From the NCBI GenBank assembly GCA_001829185.1, contig MIAR01000050.1, positions 1 through 38,313 on the forward strand: a DNA stretch of 38,313 bases. The letters are read 5' to 3'. This DNA comes from Spirochaetes bacterium GWB1_60_80 (lineage in GTDB: Bacteria > Spirochaetota > Spirochaetia > Treponematales > UBA12059). Shown here piece by piece: positions 29,730-38,298 of the stretch. The notes under the pieces were generated by a model. It searched no databases. It had not been told where the DNA came from and saw only the letters and a list, made by a program, of their open reading frames with translations. The position numbers and the translations under genes were made by a program. Position 1 is the first letter of the stretch. Each line of letters opens with the position of its first letter.

Positions 29730-30467
29730 CTAGTCGTCGATTCGCGTCCAGTCGATGGAATAGCCGATACGGGAGGCCACCGACTCCAGCAGCGCGTCAT
29801 CGTGGTGGCTAAGGCCCGCCTCCGCCATGCTGATAGCCGAACCAGCTTGGCTATACAGCCGGGCAGTGTGGTGGGCCGACTCCAGCAGCTCCTCGTTGCC
29901 GCCATTGGCGTCAATGGTCCGCACCGTACCGTTGCAGGCGCAGACGTAGGTCGAGGTCGCGTCCACCCAGACGCAGAACGAGGTCCCGCGCACGCCGGCC
30001 ACCGCCGTGGTGGTCTCAATGACGTAGCTATCCCGGCCGACCAGGTTTTCCAGCTTCTTGAGCACTGAACTCAGCCCGCCCTGCTCCAGCTGGATCAGCG
30101 CCACCGGCGCGCCAAAATCAAAGGCGGCCCGGGCGTTTTGGCCGACCGACAAGGCGTTGCCGCTGTTGAATACCAGGTCGCAGCGCGCTCCCGGACCGGT
30201 TTGGATGTTAAAGCGGGCGTTCAAGCGGTCACCCAGCTCCGGCGCTAGGCCGTCAATCCGCACCTCGCCCTGGATGTACACCACCTCAATGGTTCGGGTC
30301 GCCGCCGGACTGGCCGGCACCGTCAGCACGGGCATCGATTCGGGCGACGCAGGCGCGAGCGGCGCCGGTCGATTGCAGCCGGCCAGGGCCAGGCTGAGCA
30401 GTCCGGCAATAGCCAGACGGATGGAGAAAGCGCATCGGTTCAGGTTGATATCATGCCTCCTTGCCAA
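29730..30467 (-). CDS. FecR-domain lipoprotein
   Basis: This ~245-aa envelope lipoprotein has signal peptide RLAIAGLLSLALAGC with the lipid Cys in LAGC. A FecR domain follows at ~60-190: EVRIDGLAPELGDRLN, a QTGPGARCDLVF stretch, and TTAVAGVRGTSFCVWV. No FecI sigma factor or TonB receptor is nearby, so it is a stand-alone periplasmic FecR-domain protein, probably binding peptidoglycan, polysaccharide or a partner. The start is uncertain. AAGGAGG at 30464-30458 lies inside the frame opened by TTG 30467. The ATG next to it (30454) is out of frame and hits a stop after four codons. An in-frame CTG at 30443 would give a neat signal peptide. Confidence 0.82.
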   Translation of the reverse strand: MARRHDINLNRCAFSIRLAIAGLLSLALAGCNRPAPLAPASPESMPVLTVPASPAATRTIEVVYIQGEVRIDGLAPELGDRLNARFNIQTGPGARCDLVFNSGNALSVGQNARAAFDFGAPVALIQLEQGGLSSVLKKLENLVGRDSYVIETTTAVAGVRGTSFCVWVDATSTYVCACNGTVRTIDANGGNEELLESAHHTARLYSQAGSAISMAEAGLSHHDDALLESVASRIGYSIDWTRIDD

Positions 30468-30690: not shown

Positions 30691-31911
30691 GTGCCGCAAT
30701 CCCGATTCGCCGGTTTCCGCCCCCTGACAACCATCCTCATCGGCCTGGCCCTGACCAGCCTGTTCCTGACTGGCTGTATCCCGGCCGTCGATCCGGCCCC
30801 CACCCCAACCACCTATAGCCTGACCTATATCGGCAACGGCCACAGCGCCGGCACCGTGCCGGTCGATACCACCGCCTACGAAAGCGAAGACCGGGCCACC
30901 CTGGCCGCCCCCGGCAGCCTGACCAAAAGCGGCTATGACTTCATCGGCTGGAACACCTCTGCCACCGGCGGCGCATCCACCCGCCTCTTGGCCGGCAGTT
31001 CCGTCCGCATCACCTTTCGCGACTTGACCTTCTACGCCGAGTGGCAGGCCGACGATCCGGTCGATCCAGTCGACCCGGTTGATCCGCCAGTCGACGGTAC
31101 CTTCACCGAAGACACCAGCAACCGCTTGTCGATGGCAATACGCGACTATTACCGCGCGGCCTATGGGCTGTCCGGCGCGGTACTGAAGGCTAAGTTGCAA
31201 CAGATAATTACAACGGGGCATACTCCTGGAACCTACACTGGCTTATGGACCATGTTCCAGACAACTGACGCCATTCCTTCCGGTGCCCACGCCGGCCAGG
31301 TCTGGGACATGTACTCCAGCACCAGCGCCGACGGCAGCACGGCCGCCTATTGGTTCACCTTCGGCACCAACCAGGATTCCGGATCCGGTACCACGGAAGG
31401 CCAGTACTACAACCGCGAGCATACCTGGCCCAACAGCACATTTGGTGGCGCATCCAACACCACGCCCTACGCCGACGGCCACTCCTTGACCCCAACAGAT
31501 AAGATTGTCAACAACTTGCGCAGCAATTACTCCTATGGCGAAGTTGTCGATGGTGCAGCCGAAAATACTTATACACAGAACCTTAGCTGCTTAGGCACCG
31601 CACGTCCTGGACTTGGCTACGGTGGTACGGTATTTGAGCCGATTGATATCTACAAGGGCGACCATGCCCGCATGCACTTCTACCAATCCTTGCGCTATTA
31701 TGGCAACAGCACATTCCTAACCTGCGCCTGGGCTGCGCCTGGCGCCAAGCTCCTGCCCTGGTACGACACTATGCTGCGCACCTGGGCCGCCAATGACCCG
31801 GTCTCGGCCAAGGAAATCGCCCGCAACAACGCCGTACAGGCTTACCAGCACAACCGCAATCCGTTCATCGATTACCCGATCCTGATCGAGCTCCTGGACC
31901 TGACCGAATAA
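30691..31911 (+). CDS. Secreted EndA-type nuclease lipoprotein with InlB-type repeat
   Basis: This 406-aa lipoprotein has a signal peptide ending LFLTGC. Residues ~40-117 form one InlB B-repeat/Flg_new module (YSLTYIGNGHSAGTVP ... LTFYAEW). An acidic-Pro linker (DPVDPVDPPVD) leads to an endonuclease I domain at ~145-406. Nuclease signs are REHTWPNS (catalytic-type His244), DGHSLTPTDKIVNNLRSNY and the C-terminal ARNNAVQAYQHNRNPFIDYP. It should degrade DNA non-specifically at the cell surface, for nutrition or to clear extracellular DNA. GTG 30691 follows GAGGAG. The next gene is a paralogue sharing only the linker and the nuclease domain. Confidence 0.88.
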   Translation: MPQSRFAGFRPLTTILIGLALTSLFLTGCIPAVDPAPTPTTYSLTYIGNGHSAGTVPVDTTAYESEDRATLAAPGSLTKSGYDFIGWNTSATGGASTRLLAGSSVRITFRDLTFYAEWQADDPVDPVDPVDPPVDGTFTEDTSNRLSMAIRDYYRAAYGLSGAVLKAKLQQIITTGHTPGTYTGLWTMFQTTDAIPSGAHAGQVWDMYSSTSADGSTAAYWFTFGTNQDSGSGTTEGQYYNREHTWPNSTFGGASNTTPYADGHSLTPTDKIVNNLRSNYSYGEVVDGAAENTYTQNLSCLGTARPGLGYGGTVFEPIDIYKGDHARMHFYQSLRYYGNSTFLTCAWAAPGAKLLPWYDTMLRTWAANDPVSAKEIARNNAVQAYQHNRNPFIDYPILIELLDLTE

Positions 31912-31929
31912 AAAAGTAGGCAGCGCGGC

Positions 31930-31947
31930 GGCGGGCACCAGCCCGCC
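31930..31947 (+). terminator. Possible terminator after the first nuclease gene
   Basis: GGCGGGC-ACCA-GCCCGCC forms a tight stem 18 bp after the stop, but only a broken AT stretch (AATTATTTATT) follows. The rest of the 348-bp gap up to 32260 holds AT-rich DNA and the next promoter. Confidence 0.4.
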
Positions 31948-32130
31948 ACCGCAATTATTTATTCACGCACGCCATCCGGAATGCGAGCCGGAGGTGTGTT
32001 TTTTTGGCACCGCGCGCCACGCCAGCCGGCAACGAGACAAATTACTTATTTTTGTCAATTAATATTACTTTATTAAGTTGCGGCCTGTGGTTTGTAACTG
32101 ATATTTCACTCATTTTGGAGCATTTTTCGC

Positions 32131-32158
32131 TTGCCAGCTGCCATGGAGGGTGTATGAT
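32131..32158 (+). promoter_or_regulatory. Promoter candidate of the second nuclease gene
   Basis: TTGCCA (32131-32136), 16 bp, TATGAT (32153-32158), leaving a ~95-nt leader before GTG 32260. Confidence 0.45.
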
Positions 32159-32259
32159 GTAGTACGGATGGGACATCAGCAGCATGTTTCCATCCTGGCC
32201 CAACCAGCCGACCGCGCCGGTACAGACTCGGTCAAATACCACCAACAGGGAGCACTCCC

Positions 32260-33594
32260 GTGAAAAAACTGTCAGTCTTGTCGTTCGCCGCCATTCTGCT
32301 ATTGGCGGCCTGTTCCAGTCCGCTGGCCTATGATCTGGCCGCCGAAAAAGCCGTAGGCCAAGCGCCGGAGAGCCGGGCCATCAGCCTGACCAGCGCCGAC
32401 GCCTTCGAGCAGGATGATACCCAGGCCACGGCCCGCCTGGTCGTTGCCGGAGGGACGGCGCTGGTCCAGGAACGCAACTTCTACGACGACGCCTACGACT
32501 GGCTGAAGTTCGACGCCATCGCCGGACACGTCTACGTTATTGAAACCTTTGTCGCCGGCAGCACCGACACCGTGCTTACCGTCTATGATGGCACCACCCA
32601 GAAGGCCACCAACGACGACAAGACCTCCAGCAACTACGGCTCCAAGATCACCTTCACCGCCGCCGCCACCCGCACCTACTCCATCAAGGTTTACTCCTAC
32701 GGTGGCACAAAGGGCAGCAACCTCGGTTACAACTTCTCCATTATAGACAACAACGCCACCCCGCCAGTGGATCCGGAAGATCCGCCGGTTGACCCACCCG
32801 TCGGCGGCACCTTCACCGAAAACCTGAGCCTGCCCCAAGCCGTGCGCGACTATTACCGCAGCGCCTATGGCCTGTCCGGCAACGCCCTCAAGGCCGAGCT
32901 GCAGCGCATCATCACCTCCAGCCATTCCGGCAAATCTTACACCGGACTATGGACCATGTACCGCACCACCGACGTGGCTCCTAACGGCAAGGTCTGGGAC
33001 ATGTACTCGGCTACCAACGCCACCGGCACCACCGCCGCCTACTGGTTTACCTTCGGCACCAACCAGGACTCCGGCTCCGGCTCAGTCGAAGGCCAGTACT
33101 ACAACCGCGAGCACACCTGGCCGAACAGCACCTTCGGCGGCACCGCCAACAGCTACGCCTACTCCGACGGCCACTCCATCACACCCACCGACAAGATCGT
33201 CAACAACCGCCGCTCCAACTATTCCTACGGCGAAGTCGGCACCGCCAGCTGGACCTCGCTGAATGGCAGCAAGCTGGGCAGCGCCCGCTCCGGACTCGGC
33301 TACACCGGCACCGTGTTTGAACCGGTCAGCTTCTACAAGGGCGACCATGCCCGCATGCACTTCTACCAGGCCGTGCGCTACTACAACAACGGCACCTTCG
33401 CCACCTGTGCCTGGTCCAACTCCGGCGCCAAGCTCAAGACCTGGTACGATGCCATGCTGCGCACCTGGGCTACCAATGACCCCGTCTCGGCCAAGGAAAT
33501 CGCCCGCAACAACGCCGTGCAGGCCTACCAGGGCAACCGCAACCCCTTCATCGACTACCCCTCACTCGTCAACCTCGTCAGTCTGACCGAGTAA
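32260..33594 (+). CDS. Secreted EndA-type nuclease lipoprotein with PPC-like domain
   Basis: This 444-aa paralogue of the preceding nuclease has lipobox LLLAAC. Residues ~45-165 form a beta-sandwich resembling the bacterial pre-peptidase C-terminal (PPC) domain (AFEQDDTQATARL ... YDDAYDWLKFDAIAGHVYVI ... TVLTVYDG). A DPEDPPVDPPV linker leads to the endonuclease I domain (~185-444) with REHTWPNS (His285), DGHSITPTDKIVNNRRSNY and NRNPFIDYP. The nuclease part is close to its neighbour over its whole length while the front domain is unrelated. GTG 32260 follows AGGGAG. A strong terminator follows. Extracellular DNA degradation is the likely role; the PPC-like part may bind polymer or aid secretion. 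Confidence 0.88.
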   Translation: MKKLSVLSFAAILLLAACSSPLAYDLAAEKAVGQAPESRAISLTSADAFEQDDTQATARLVVAGGTALVQERNFYDDAYDWLKFDAIAGHVYVIETFVAGSTDTVLTVYDGTTQKATNDDKTSSNYGSKITFTAAATRTYSIKVYSYGGTKGSNLGYNFSIIDNNATPPVDPEDPPVDPPVGGTFTENLSLPQAVRDYYRSAYGLSGNALKAELQRIITSSHSGKSYTGLWTMYRTTDVAPNGKVWDMYSATNATGTTAAYWFTFGTNQDSGSGSVEGQYYNREHTWPNSTFGGTANSYAYSDGHSITPTDKIVNNRRSNYSYGEVGTASWTSLNGSKLGSARSGLGYTGTVFEPVSFYKGDHARMHFYQAVRYYNNGTFATCAWSNSGAKLKTWYDAMLRTWATNDPVSAKEIARNNAVQAYQGNRNPFIDYPSLVNLVSLTE

Positions 33595-33619
33595 GCAAGT
33601 AATAATACAAGCGGACACG

Positions 33620-33667
33620 CCGCCGCGCCGCCTTACCGCAAGGTTAGGTAGCGCGGCGGTTCTTTTT
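33620..33667 (+). terminator. Strong rho-independent terminator of the second nuclease gene
   Basis: CCGCCGCGC (33620-33628) pairs with GCGCGGCGG (33651-33659), an inner ACC-GCAA-GGT hairpin lies in the loop, and TTCTTTTTT follows. Confidence 0.9.
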
Positions 33668-33707
33668 TGAGTGGGGGATAGTGCTTCAAAATGTGGAAAT
33701 CATCAGA

Positions 33708-34150: not shown

Positions 34151-35308
34151 TCAGAATTCAGTAACTGCTGACCAGCTATGGATAGCCAGGCCTTTCCAGC
34201 TCAACGACCTATCTCCAGCGTAAACAAGAGAACAATCGTCCGGCGTGGTGCCAGCGTACTTCATCCAGGTTTCCAGTCCAGCCGCATGCTCTGGGGCAAA
34301 TGATTTCCCGGACTTTATTTCCAAGGCGCAGAGTTTCAAGCCGTCTTCAAAGACAACATCGACTTCAGCACCAACGTTGTCGCGCCAGAAATAGATATCA
34401 GGATCCTGCCCCTTGTTCAGACGCGACTTCAGAATTTCCGATACGACGAAGGACTCAAAGATATGGCCTCGCAAGGGGTGAAGGAATAATTGCTCAGCGC
34501 TCTGCATCCCCAGTAGCCTGGAGGCCAAGCCGGTATCCGTGAAATACAGCTTGGGACTCTTGACCAGCCGCTTGCCAAAATTCCGGTGAAATGGCTGGAG
34601 TAAATAAATGATACCGCTTGCCTCGAGTACCGACAGCCAGGCCTTTGCCGTATTATGGGAAAGCCCGCAGTCCAGCGCCAGAGCGCTCAGGTTGAGCAGT
34701 TGGCCAATGCGCGAGGCGCACATCTTGACGAAAGTCTGAAACACACCAAGATCCTTGACGTTGAGGACGGAACGCACATCACGCTCGATATATGAAGCGA
34801 TATAATTCGTATACCAGTCATAAGCAGAAACCTGACGATCAAACAATGGCGGATAAAAACCGTTCAGAATCATGTCGAAAGGATCAGACTTCAGCCGACC
34901 AGCGGCTTGCAATTCAGAAATAGTAAATGGAAGCAAGCTCAGGAAGGCAGCCCTTCCAGCCAGCGACTCGGTGACTCCAGCCAGCATGCTGAATTGTTGT
35001 GAACCCGTCACCACAAAACGCCCGGGTGCCGGATTCAGGTCAACCGCCGTCTTTAAGTAGGCAAATAACTCCGGCACATACTGCGCCTCGTCAAGTATCA
35101 ACCCATCCTTGTAGCTATCCAGCAGTCCGCGCGGGTCCTCTCTAGCCAGCCGAGCCATATCCGGGTCTTCCAGCGACACATAGCTTTTTTCTGGGAAAGC
35201 CGCCCGAGCCAGCGTCGTCTTGCCGGATTGCCGAGGCCCGGTAATACACAGGACAGGAAAACCTTTACGGAGCCGCTGCAAGGTGGCTTCTGCTGCTCGG
35301 TTAATCAT
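34151..35308 (-). CDS. AAA ATPase with DUF4143 domain
   Basis: This 385-aa ATPase belongs to the common 'AAA_14-DUF4143' family. Walker A is GPRQSGKTTLARAAF, Walker B is GLILDEAQYVPEL and sensor 1 is VTGSQQF. The C-terminal DUF4143 domain (~200-385) includes the nuclease-like pattern GAEVDVVFEDG...LEIKSG (D...ExK). Function is unproven; genes of this family are scattered, often near mobile DNA. No ribosome site precedes ATG 35308, and the -10 box ends six bases before it, so the mRNA is probably leaderless. An 11-bp inverted repeat covers the promoter. Confidence 0.92.
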   Translation of the reverse strand: MINRAAEATLQRLRKGFPVLCITGPRQSGKTTLARAAFPEKSYVSLEDPDMARLAREDPRGLLDSYKDGLILDEAQYVPELFAYLKTAVDLNPAPGRFVVTGSQQFSMLAGVTESLAGRAAFLSLLPFTISELQAAGRLKSDPFDMILNGFYPPLFDRQVSAYDWYTNYIASYIERDVRSVLNVKDLGVFQTFVKMCASRIGQLLNLSALALDCGLSHNTAKAWLSVLEASGIIYLLQPFHRNFGKRLVKSPKLYFTDTGLASRLLGMQSAEQLFLHPLRGHIFESFVVSEILKSRLNKGQDPDIYFWRDNVGAEVDVVFEDGLKLCALEIKSGKSFAPEHAAGLETWMKYAGTTPDDCSLVYAGDRSLSWKGLAIHSWSAVTEF

Positions 35309-35375: not shown

Positions 35376-35864
35376 TCAATCCGCCAAGCCGACCAGAATA
35401 AAATGCAGCCAGCCGCTACCCAGGTCGGCCACCACCATCAGATCCGGCGGCACCGAGCGATCGTCCAGTAGGGAACGTGTACTCACTGCCTTGGCCAGCC
35501 ACAGTTCGCGTCGGTCCTTCAGGTAGGACGGTTCGGCAAACCAACCGGCAGCATCAACCGCCCGCTGGAACGAGAACCAGTTATCCTCAGCCATCCGGAA
35601 CAGGTTATAGGCAAAACCATACTGGGCTAACAGGCCGCTCTGGATGCGCTCCAGCCAGGCCGCGCCGATGGTCGTTACCACCGACTCGTCCCAGCCCAAT
35701 CGACCAACCTGATCCAGCAATTCCTGGCGCAGGCCATCGGAATGTTCTACCAAATCCGTCAGAAGGGTGGCCGGCAGCCAGCTATGAATCTCAAGTAGAG
35801 TATTGGACAGAAAGAGGTTTGTTTCCAGGCTGGCCTGCAGCTGGCTGATGGTCGGTTCGGTCAT
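35376..35864 (-). CDS. Unknown 162-aa protein
   Basis: I do not recognise it. It is a soluble protein with a leucine-rich helical first half (ETNLFLSNTLLEIHSWLPATL) and a Trp-rich second half (ENWFSFQRAVDAAGWF). No signal peptide or membrane segment. ATG 35864 follows GAGGA. It lies 67 bp upstream of the ATPase gene on the same strand, but that gene has its own promoter in the gap. GC-rich codons match the core genes. Confidence 0.68.
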   Translation of the reverse strand: MTEPTISQLQASLETNLFLSNTLLEIHSWLPATLLTDLVEHSDGLRQELLDQVGRLGWDESVVTTIGAAWLERIQSGLLAQYGFAYNLFRMAEDNWFSFQRAVDAAGWFAEPSYLKDRRELWLAKAVSTRSLLDDRSVPPDLMVVADLGSGWLHFILVGLAD

Positions 35865-36017: not shown

Positions 36018-36240
36018 GATAAGCTCCTTTGCGATTCCGTACGGGAATCACTTCTATGACCAATTTGTGATCCTCATAACGGCATCCATAATGCCCTCCT
36101 TCTTGATACTGATAATAATACTACGAATTGCCCCGATAAGTTCGTCTAAAGTTATAAGTATGGCCTTTCTTGTTTGTTCGTAACCGTCAATTCTTCCCAT
36201 CTTGACGTATAAGATAGACTCCAGCGCAGGAGGATTTATT

Positions 36241-36552
36241 ATGGTCACGAAAAAATTGACAGCTGCAGAATGGATGGAGCACTTGGCAACCCAGGCGAGC
36301 GGCGCGTGTTCGCAGGCCGCTTATTGCGCCAAGAACGAATTGAGCTTGAGTGCCTTCCGGTACTGGAAGAAACGCTGCGCCAATATTGCCAAGCAGAAGG
36401 ACCAAGAGCTCGTCGAGGTTGCACCGCAGTGGGTTACCGGCGTACACGATCTGTGCGCGATCAGTTTCCCGAATGGCTGCACGGTACGGCTTCGTACCGC
36501 CAACTCGATTGGCCTGATTTCTGCCTTGGCGAAAGAGTTCGGCCTGTCATGA
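36241..36552 (+). CDS. tnpA: IS66 accessory protein TnpA
   Basis: This 103-aa small IS66 ORF1 protein has a helix-turn-helix-like N-terminus (TAAEWMEHLATQASG, YCAKNELSLSAFRYWKKR) and a short C-terminal beta part. It is needed with TnpB for transposition in characterised IS66 elements. ATG 36241 follows AGGAGG. Its stop overlaps the tnpB start (ATGA). Confidence 0.86.
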   Translation: MVTKKLTAAEWMEHLATQASGACSQAAYCAKNELSLSAFRYWKKRCANIAKQKDQELVEVAPQWVTGVHDLCAISFPNGCTVRLRTANSIGLISALAKEFGLS

Positions 36553-36896
36553 TCATCAACTGGAAGGCTCTGCGGATTTTTGTGCGACCAGGCAGTACCG
36601 ATATGCGCAAGCAGATTAACGGCTTGGCCGCGATCGTCCAGGACAGCCTGCAGCTCGATCCATTGGACGGGAGCCTGTACCTGTTTCTCGGCAAGGACAA
36701 GCGGCGGCTCAAGATTCTGTACTGGGACTGCAACGGTTTTTGCATGTGGCAGAAGCGGCTGGAGAAAGACCGGTTCCCGTGGCCCAAAGACGGCGAGTCG
36801 GCGCGTGAGCTAACCGGGGACCAGTTGACCATGCTGCTGACCGGCATCGACTTTTGGAACGCCCACCAGACACTGTTTTTCGGCCGGGCCGGCTGA
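36549..36896 (+). CDS. tnpB: IS66 accessory protein TnpB
   Basis: This 115-aa protein shows the typical IS66 Orf2 pattern: FVRPGSTDMRKQINGL, LYLFLGKDKRRLKILYWD, then GFCMWQKRLEKDRFPWP. Its start is coupled to tnpA by a four-base ATGA overlap. Full length and apparently intact. Confidence 0.95.
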   Translation: MIINWKALRIFVRPGSTDMRKQINGLAAIVQDSLQLDPLDGSLYLFLGKDKRRLKILYWDCNGFCMWQKRLEKDRFPWPKDGESARELTGDQLTMLLTGIDFWNAHQTLFFGRAG

Positions 36897-36939
36897 TTTT
36901 GCTTGTCACAAGCTCGACATTCCGTGATACAATATTCGC

Positions 36940-38298
36940 ATGGCTAAGGCTATTGCGGTCAGCGAAAACGAGCGTCTCAGGGCGGAAAACGAGCGGCTGC
37001 ATGCGCGCATCGCCTTCCTGCAGGAACAACTGGCGCTGGCCTTTTTCAAGCGCTATGGGCGCTCTGCTGAATCATTCAAGGATCAGCCGGATCTGCCATT
37101 TGCCGACGAGCTTGAGGCCATCATCAACCAGCAGGACAAGGCCGAGCTCGAGACCATCACTTACGAACGCAAGAAGCCTGGTCGAAAAAGCTTGGCCGAG
37201 GAGTTGCCGCGCGAGCATCTGTATCATGACTTGAGCGAGGCCGAGAAGACCTGTGCCTGCGGCCAGCCTATGACCAAGATCGGCGAGGACGTTAGCGAGC
37301 GCCTGAACGTGGTGCCGGCCAAGGTTTGGGTGGAAGCGCATCATCATGCCAAGTATGCCTGCCCCCATTGCCAGGGCATCAATGACAGCGAGGCTAGTGC
37401 CGTCAAGCGCGCCGCTGGCGGGGAACCCCTGATCCCCGGCAGTATAGTCACCCCTGGTCTGGCCGCGTTCATCTGGACCAACAAGTTCTGCGATCACCTG
37501 CCGTTCTACCGTCAGGAGATATGCTTCGACCGCATTGGGGCTACAGTCTCGCGCCAGGATATGTCCAACTGGACCATCCGCTTGGCCGCCGACCTTGAGC
37601 CGCTGATCCAACGGCTTGAACAGCACATCCGTGCCGGGCCGGTCATCCAGATGGACGAGACGCCGGTGAAGGTACTCAAGCTCGATCGTACCGGCAAAGA
37701 CGGCACTGGCTACATGTGGCTGGCCCGCGGCGGGACGGAACAGCAACCGGCGGTGCGTTACCGTTTCGCGCCAGGCCGCGGCGCGGTACATGCCGCGACC
37801 TTCCTGGGCGACTATTCTGGCTTTGTGCAGACCGATGGCTATCAAGCTTACGACAGCCTGGCTGCCGCTGCGCGCTGGGTACATGTCGGCTGCTGGGCTC
37901 ATGCCCGCCGCAAATTCTACGAGGCAGAAAAGGTCGCGCATTCCGCCCTGCTGACCGAGGCTTTGTCGCGAATCAAAAAGCTGTATGCCTTGGAGTATGA
38001 AGCCCGCAAGCTGCCCGACGAACCAGGGGTCATCCAGGGCCGGCGCCGTGCTTTGCTGCAACCCTTTCTGGTTGATTTCAAGCAGTGGCTGGATGCAACT
38101 ATGACGCGCGTCCTGCCAGCGGGCAAGACGGGCGAAGCGTTTGCCTACACCATTGGCCAATGGGACAAGTTGCTGCGATTTTTTGATCACTACACCCTGA
38201 CACCGGATAACAACCGGGCCTTATGCTCAGGAATCCGTAATCCTCAGGATTCGGGCAAGTCATCAAGAAGCAACAAGATACTCCGCATGGTCGCCTGA
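36940..38298 (+). CDS. tnpC: IS66 transposase TnpC, truncated before the catalytic Glu
   Basis: The reading frame of 452 aa carries the IS66 domain order: N-terminal leucine-zipper-like coiled coil (ENERLRAENERLHARI), basic hinge, zinc-finger region (CACGQPM, CPHC), and the DDE core with Asp239 (QMDETPVKV) and Asp299 (TDGYQAYD). Homology stops after TPDNNRA at 38220. The family continues there with AEN-AIRP, which supplies the third catalytic residue. The last 26 codons are foreign. The enzyme should therefore be inactive. It starts 43 bp after tnpB. Confidence 0.9.
   Translation: MAKAIAVSENERLRAENERLHARIAFLQEQLALAFFKRYGRSAESFKDQPDLPFADELEAIINQQDKAELETITYERKKPGRKSLAEELPREHLYHDLSEAEKTCACGQPMTKIGEDVSERLNVVPAKVWVEAHHHAKYACPHCQGINDSEASAVKRAAGGEPLIPGSIVTPGLAAFIWTNKFCDHLPFYRQEICFDRIGATVSRQDMSNWTIRLAADLEPLIQRLEQHIRAGPVIQMDETPVKVLKLDRTGKDGTGYMWLARGGTEQQPAVRYRFAPGRGAVHAATFLGDYSGFVQTDGYQAYDSLAAAARWVHVGCWAHARRKFYEAEKVAHSALLTEALSRIKKLYALEYEARKLPDEPGVIQGRRRALLQPFLVDFKQWLDATMTRVLPAGKTGEAFAYTIGQWDKLLRFFDHYTLTPDNNRALCSGIRNPQDSGKSSRSNKILRMVA

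Follow-up and report, generated by a model that had tools for sequence, protein, structure and literature searches.

Two adjacent predicted lipoprotein nucleases with different N-terminal modules in an uncultured spirochaete

Results

The window analyzed here is the whole 38,313-nucleotide stretch of contig MIAR01000050.1 (positions 1-38,313; assembly GCA_001829185.1) from Spirochaetes bacterium GWB1_60_80, an uncultured spirochaete (GTDB lineage Bacteria; Spirochaetota; Spirochaetia; Treponematales; UBA12059). It contains two intact, adjacent open reading frames, P1 and P2, that run in the same direction 348 bp apart, each with a GTG start and a purine-rich ribosome-binding site at the coordinates listed here together with the other features of the locus.

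30691..31911 (+): P1, predicted lipoprotein, InlB B-repeat plus Endonuclease I, 406 aa (ORF, Pfam)
30691..30777 (+): P1 signal peptide with lipobox LTGC, Cys29 (sequence reading, motif scan)
30814..31038 (+): P1 InlB B-repeat, or Listeria-Bacteroides repeat, PF09479 (Pfam, fold match 2Y5P)
31048..31095 (+): P1 acidic-proline linker, DPVDPVDPVDPPVD; DNA homology with P2 starts inside it, at 31075
31174..31878 (+): P1 Endonuclease_1 domain, PF04231 (Pfam, fold match Vvn/EndA)
31417..31422 (+): P1 E243-H244, counterparts of Vvn E79/H80 (invariant alignment columns)
31510-31512 (+): P1 N274, counterpart of Vvn N127 (invariant alignment column)
31912..32259 (no strand): spacer between P1 and P2, 348 bp (sequence)
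32131-32158: promoter-like site upstream of P2 (a 10/12 consensus match only)
32260..33594 (+): P2, predicted lipoprotein, PPC plus Endonuclease I, 444 aa (ORF, Pfam)
32260..32313 (+): P2 signal peptide with lipobox LAAC, Cys18 (sequence reading, motif scan)
32377..32751 (+): P2 PPC-like front module, Pfam core 32494-32697 (Pfam, fold match)
32755..32805 (+): P2 acidic-proline linker, TPPVDPEDPPVDPPVGG (DNA comparison)
32878..33561 (+): P2 Endonuclease_1 domain, PF04231 (Pfam, fold match)
33109..33114 (+): P2 E284-H285, counterparts of Vvn E79, H80 (alignment to 1OUP/2G7E)
33202-33204 (+): P2 N315, counterpart of Vvn N127 (alignment to 1OUP/2G7E)
33620..33668 (+): terminator-like inverted repeat, then a T run, 3' of P2 (by eye; absent from scan output)
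35376-35864 (-): orphan gene of about 160 aa, convergent with the nuclease (profile search, locus comparison)

Given the promoter-like site before P2 and the inverted repeat and T run after it, a P1-P2 operon is not required, and P2 is probably transcribed separately from its own promoter. P1 and P2 were the only Endonuclease I genes found in the genome, which is 3.6 Mb in size. Divergent from P1 lies the gene for a FecR-domain lipoprotein (window 29730-30467, minus strand) that is weakly similar to the leptospiral surface proteins Lsa33/LipL45. Between P2 and the 160-aa gene is an AAA/DUF4143 ATPase gene (window 34151-35308, minus strand), which matches the PADLOC candidate model PDC-S01 (1.9e-101) and has 81% identity to a gene of the same-genus genome G001; the end of the contig is occupied by IS66-type transposase genes (window 36202-38298, plus strand).

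Both nuclease domains fit the Endonuclease_1 profile closely, scoring 180 bits in P1 (residues 162-396, 6.7e-53) and 208 bits in P2 (residues 207-434, 1.8e-61) against a cut-off of 25 and covering profile positions 2-234 of 235. AlphaFold models of the two proteins have modest mean pLDDT values (70 and 67, with front parts of moderate confidence), and in both the back end resembles Vibrio EndA/Vvn when searched with Foldseek (2VND, 2G7E and 1OUP; E 1e-4 to 7e-7). The catalytic E/H/N residues are invariant across 20-21 aligned homologues; in Vvn these are E79, the metal ligand, H80, the general base, and N127, which have their roles in the His-Me finger (PMC5305256, PMC5758888). The lipoboxes of both proteins fit the motif [LVI][ASTVI][GAS]C in a motif scan, which makes P1 and P2 predicted bacterial lipoproteins. 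Apart from its lipid Cys, the mature part of P2 has one Cys, so that an intramolecular disulfide is impossible.

The two front parts belong to different families. That of P1 is a single Flg_new/InlB repeat (residues 42-116, 35.3 bits against a Pfam cut-off of 27), and its model matches the Listeria InlB B-repeat structure 2Y5P (Foldseek, TMt 0.74, E 0.013). The front of P2 aligns with PPC (PF04151) over residues 79-146 at 25.0 bits, 0.9 below the cut-off of 25.9, and modules of the P2 type exceed that cut-off in other proteins: 27.9 bits in a relative from genus g8, 35.8 in a clostripain protein, and 37.1 in a nuclease of the endonuclease/exonuclease/phosphatase (EEP) type. Its model, at moderate pLDDT, is an all-beta sandwich (residues 69-163) for which Foldseek returns the PPC/collagen-binding structures 3AFG, 3JQW and 5SV5. 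The initial annotation of this DNA had described adjacent lipoprotein genes sharing an EndA-type nuclease and an acidic-Pro linker, one with an InlB-type repeat and the other with a PPC-like domain; Pfam, the lipoboxes and the alignment bear out the shared parts, and the fold matches, with Pfam for the InlB repeat, bear out the fronts, which have different predicted folds, an InlB B-repeat and a PPC-type beta-sandwich, and are not homologous.

In the separate alignment of parts that the initial annotation had proposed, the nucleases of P1 and P2 are 72% identical across 271 residues (E = 4e-137; 74% in the comparison of nucleases below), whereas alignment of the front parts gives noise only. 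At the DNA level, homology is confined to 31075-31918 and 32785-33601, that is, to the linker, the nuclease and seven bases beyond the stop codon. At four-fold synonymous sites the two genes are 61% identical, where 57% would arise by chance, a saturation similar to that between genera; because the proteins have nevertheless remained 74% identical, both copies have been under purifying selection. One window of 30 codons near the C-terminus has 91% P1-P2 DNA identity, which is too short to support a claim of local gene conversion.

Endonuclease I is present in seven of 394 genomes of the order, and only in GWB1_60_80 do two such genes lie side by side; a search for the pair in related genomes, as had been proposed, thus found no P1-P2-type tandem in the other 393. 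G001, a genome of the same genus (95% complete), has neither the locus nor any Endonuclease I, so gain by transfer is possible. Two distant genomes, G475 and G479, contain another tandem Endonuclease I pair, the members of which are more distantly related. The relatives differ in what precedes the enzyme: the nuclease of G010 has an InlB repeat, that of G008 has PPC followed by InlB in one 516-aa protein, those of G016 and G013a have PPC, G013b has two Ig/FN3-like repeats (identified by eye), and in G071 the enzyme stands behind a linker only. In G010, G008, G016 and G013a, a homologue of the 160-aa gene lies downstream of the nuclease in convergent orientation, and on account of this common neighbor their nuclease loci are most likely orthologous to the P1/P2 locus. 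What separates the nuclease from the 160-aa gene is a zinc peptidase gene in g8 and the DUF4143 ATPase gene in the window.

Since fronts differ at single-gene loci, it is the locus itself that is prone to front turnover, independently of duplication. This is old, ordinary module shuffling, in which fronts were added, dropped or combined at one locus. The initial annotation had tied the exchange of fronts to the P1/P2 duplication, a connection that does not hold, as single-copy loci of relatives carry InlB, PPC, or PPC plus InlB. A nuclease fragment in G021 adds no independent evidence, because the whole 5816-base contig (L117, G021:C129) is 100% identical to contig C44 of G010; as the two genomes belong to different genera, the G021 contig is probably mis-binned.

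The relationships among the nucleases place P2 nearer to copies in another genus, g8, than to its neighbor. P2 and the g8 nucleases are 77-81% identical, more than P1 and P2 (74%), and P1 is about equally far from P2 and g8 (74-76%); P1 and P2 are both 68-70% identical to G010, and identities to more distant relatives are ~46-66%, so that the pair is closer than distant homologues are, as the initial annotation would have it. In the nuclease tree, P1 falls outside a group of P2 and g8 with support of 89/91. Forcing P1 and P2 to be sisters costs 5.2 log units (AU p = 0.18), and the topology with P1 outside is therefore favored but not proven. With support of 98/97, the PPC of P2 joins those of the g8 nucleases and not the clostripain and EEP PPCs, and is thus orthologous to the former. 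For InlB, the tree of the repeats from P1, G008 and G010 is weak and neither favors nor rejects a single clade; with ~79 residues and 41-56% identity, the repeats are too short and divergent to show whether all three stem from one insertion. A recent transfer of P2 between genera was also considered, as raw four-fold identity was 66% against 46-58% for core genes, but this excess vanished after subtraction of the chance identity at these GC-rich sites, and the transfer is rejected as unproven. Judged against chance, the P1-P2 value resembles that of P2-g8 and those of core genes from different genera; the duplication is old.

These comparisons bear on a simpler account, close to that of the initial annotation, in which a recent tandem duplication in this lineage was followed by replacement of one front at the linker. 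Several observations suit it: the genes are adjacent and in the same orientation, their DNA homology comprises linker and nuclease only, no other genome of the order has the pair, and the sister position is not rejected. The paralogy of the nucleases, the unrelated fronts and the switch point within the Asp-Pro linker do stand; the recent timing does not, given the saturated synonymous sites, and P2 is nearer in sequence to the copies of another genus, with which it has the PPC in common. We consider such a recent event unlikely. It is improbable, too, that a PPC-InlB-Endonuclease I ancestor was duplicated and that each copy then lost the complementary front. The G008 protein, with both modules at the same locus, and a sister relationship of P1 and P2 would be compatible with this partition, but P1, G010 and the other outgroups are without PPC, the best tree puts the gain of PPC after the split of P1, and one more loss is needed than in the history favored below. 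A separate horizontal arrival of P1 beside a resident P2 is similarly improbable, as its patchy distribution, the missing locus in G001 and a nuclease GC3 of 0.71 (below the 0.88 of the P2 nuclease and below most GC-rich neighbors) are set against a modest GC3 difference, a P1 front at 0.81, the equal distance of P1 from P2 and g8, and the finding of no closer donor.

The N-terminus of P2 recurs in front of other enzymes. The arrangement of signal peptide, lipobox, spacer, the sequence DAYEQDD and PPC also heads a clostripain (PF03415) in this genome and its relatives, and in this genome it heads an EEP (PF03372) protein as well; the EEP-type nuclease and the clostripain lipoprotein lie at G000:C45:72916 (L171) and G000:C15:19324 (L167). 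This N-terminus acts like a secretion-and-display cassette that can be set before different hydrolases. The PPC domains of collagenases bind substrate, and members of the PPC family serve secreted enzymes as substrate-binding add-ons (PMC6168687); by analogy, the binding of a matrix polymer would be the likeliest role here.

The 160-aa gene follows Endonuclease I closely within the order. Its profile finds the same seven of 394 genomes, always on the nuclease contig, of which at most six are independent, as G021 is possibly a mis-binned copy of G010. Homologues convergent with the nuclease lie at L013:6823-7302 (-), L012:5715-6209 (-) and L125:3215-3679 (+), and the gene is likewise convergent in G071, which belongs to another family. 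Endonuclease I carriers of the phylum outside the order, which are more distant, do not have it, and it is missing from the flanks of the Bacteroidota-type Endonuclease I loci examined. The protein has no match in Pfam, PADLOC, PDB or viral contigs and none above the cut-off in NCBIfam, and by eye it has no signal peptide. Within the order, the gene displays the strict co-occurrence and linkage of a nuclease-inhibitor pair (barstar/NuiA-like), and its product is a possible candidate for an inhibitor or maturation partner. More specifically, it might be a dedicated cytoplasmic inhibitor, or an export or maturation partner, of the disulfide-free Endonuclease I with P1 and P2 as its clients, a proposal we hold to be doubtful. 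Co-inheritance of neighbors is the dull alternative. In G010 and G071, moreover, the gene is co-directional with an upstream gene for a large secreted lipoprotein, which leaves room for a partner other than the nuclease. The Endonuclease I locus of G010 (L203:10330-14691) also includes a large secreted lipoprotein with DUF5018-like domains, with an EEP-type nuclease gene beyond, and is possibly an extracellular DNA-degradation cluster.

Discussion

We suggest, with a probability of roughly 60%, that P1 and P2 are ancient (near-)paralogues of a lipid-anchored Endonuclease I in which the catalytic domain persisted as N-terminal parts came and went. Both would be secreted, lipid-anchored nucleases that cut extracellular DNA or RNA non-specifically through the His-Me finger, presumably while exposed at the surface. 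The ancestral form was likely an InlB repeat followed by Endonuclease I; a complete cassette of signal peptide, lipobox and PPC would then have been joined to its N-terminal side in the lineage leading to P2 and g8, with InlB later kept in G008 and lost in P2, G016 and G013a. This is the simplest history that fits the data, although a second insertion of InlB, in G008, would take an equal number of steps. Among the genomes examined, both forms would have been retained side by side only in GWB1_60_80.

The initial annotation had seen in the two fronts a pair of anchoring or binding specificities. Anchoring is better assigned to the lipid at the lipobox Cys of both proteins than to the modules, and the fronts would instead bind or space the enzyme, with PPC as a binder of matrix or polymer. 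As read from their sequences, then, P1 and P2 are two lipid-anchored putative nucleases whose differing fronts are possibly substrate-binding.

The locus offers a natural series of InlB-nuclease, PPC-InlB-nuclease, PPC-nuclease and both kinds in tandem, and because the enzyme is nearly constant throughout, the contribution of InlB and PPC modules to a surface hydrolase becomes testable. In one spirochaete family, a single cassette has been reused before three unrelated hydrolases, namely clostripain, the EEP nuclease and Endonuclease I. The locus also points to an uncharacterized gene tied to Endonuclease I nucleases; if the doubtful role proposed above were true, the 160-aa proteins would form a nuclease-control family without a described relative.

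With Vibrio EndA/Dns, V. vulnificus Vvn and E. coli EndA (PF04231), the P1 and P2 nucleases have the fold, by Foldseek, and the E-H...N catalytic set in common, while sequence similarity to Vibrio EndA is weak (phmmer E ~2e-4). In contrast to that family, the nuclease here follows an additional module and forms the C-terminus of a predicted lipoprotein, and the mature part of P2, with its single non-lipid Cys, has no intramolecular disulfide. The closest large group among cellular proteins is the Bacteroidota-type secreted Endonuclease I (~50% identity), in most of the examined examples of which the nuclease stands at the N-terminal end of the reading frame, whereas in P1 and P2 it follows the front module. 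The front of P2 matches, in its predicted fold, the PPC/collagen-binding domain (PF04151), as in the ColG/ColH CBD and the Tk-SP C-domain; those domains are C-terminal, whereas the PPC of P2 is N-terminal, between the lipobox and the catalytic domain. The front of P1 is an InlB B-repeat (PF09479) by both Pfam score and fold, but where internalins have an array of such repeats, P1 has a single one, in a spirochaete predicted lipoprotein and fused to a nuclease.
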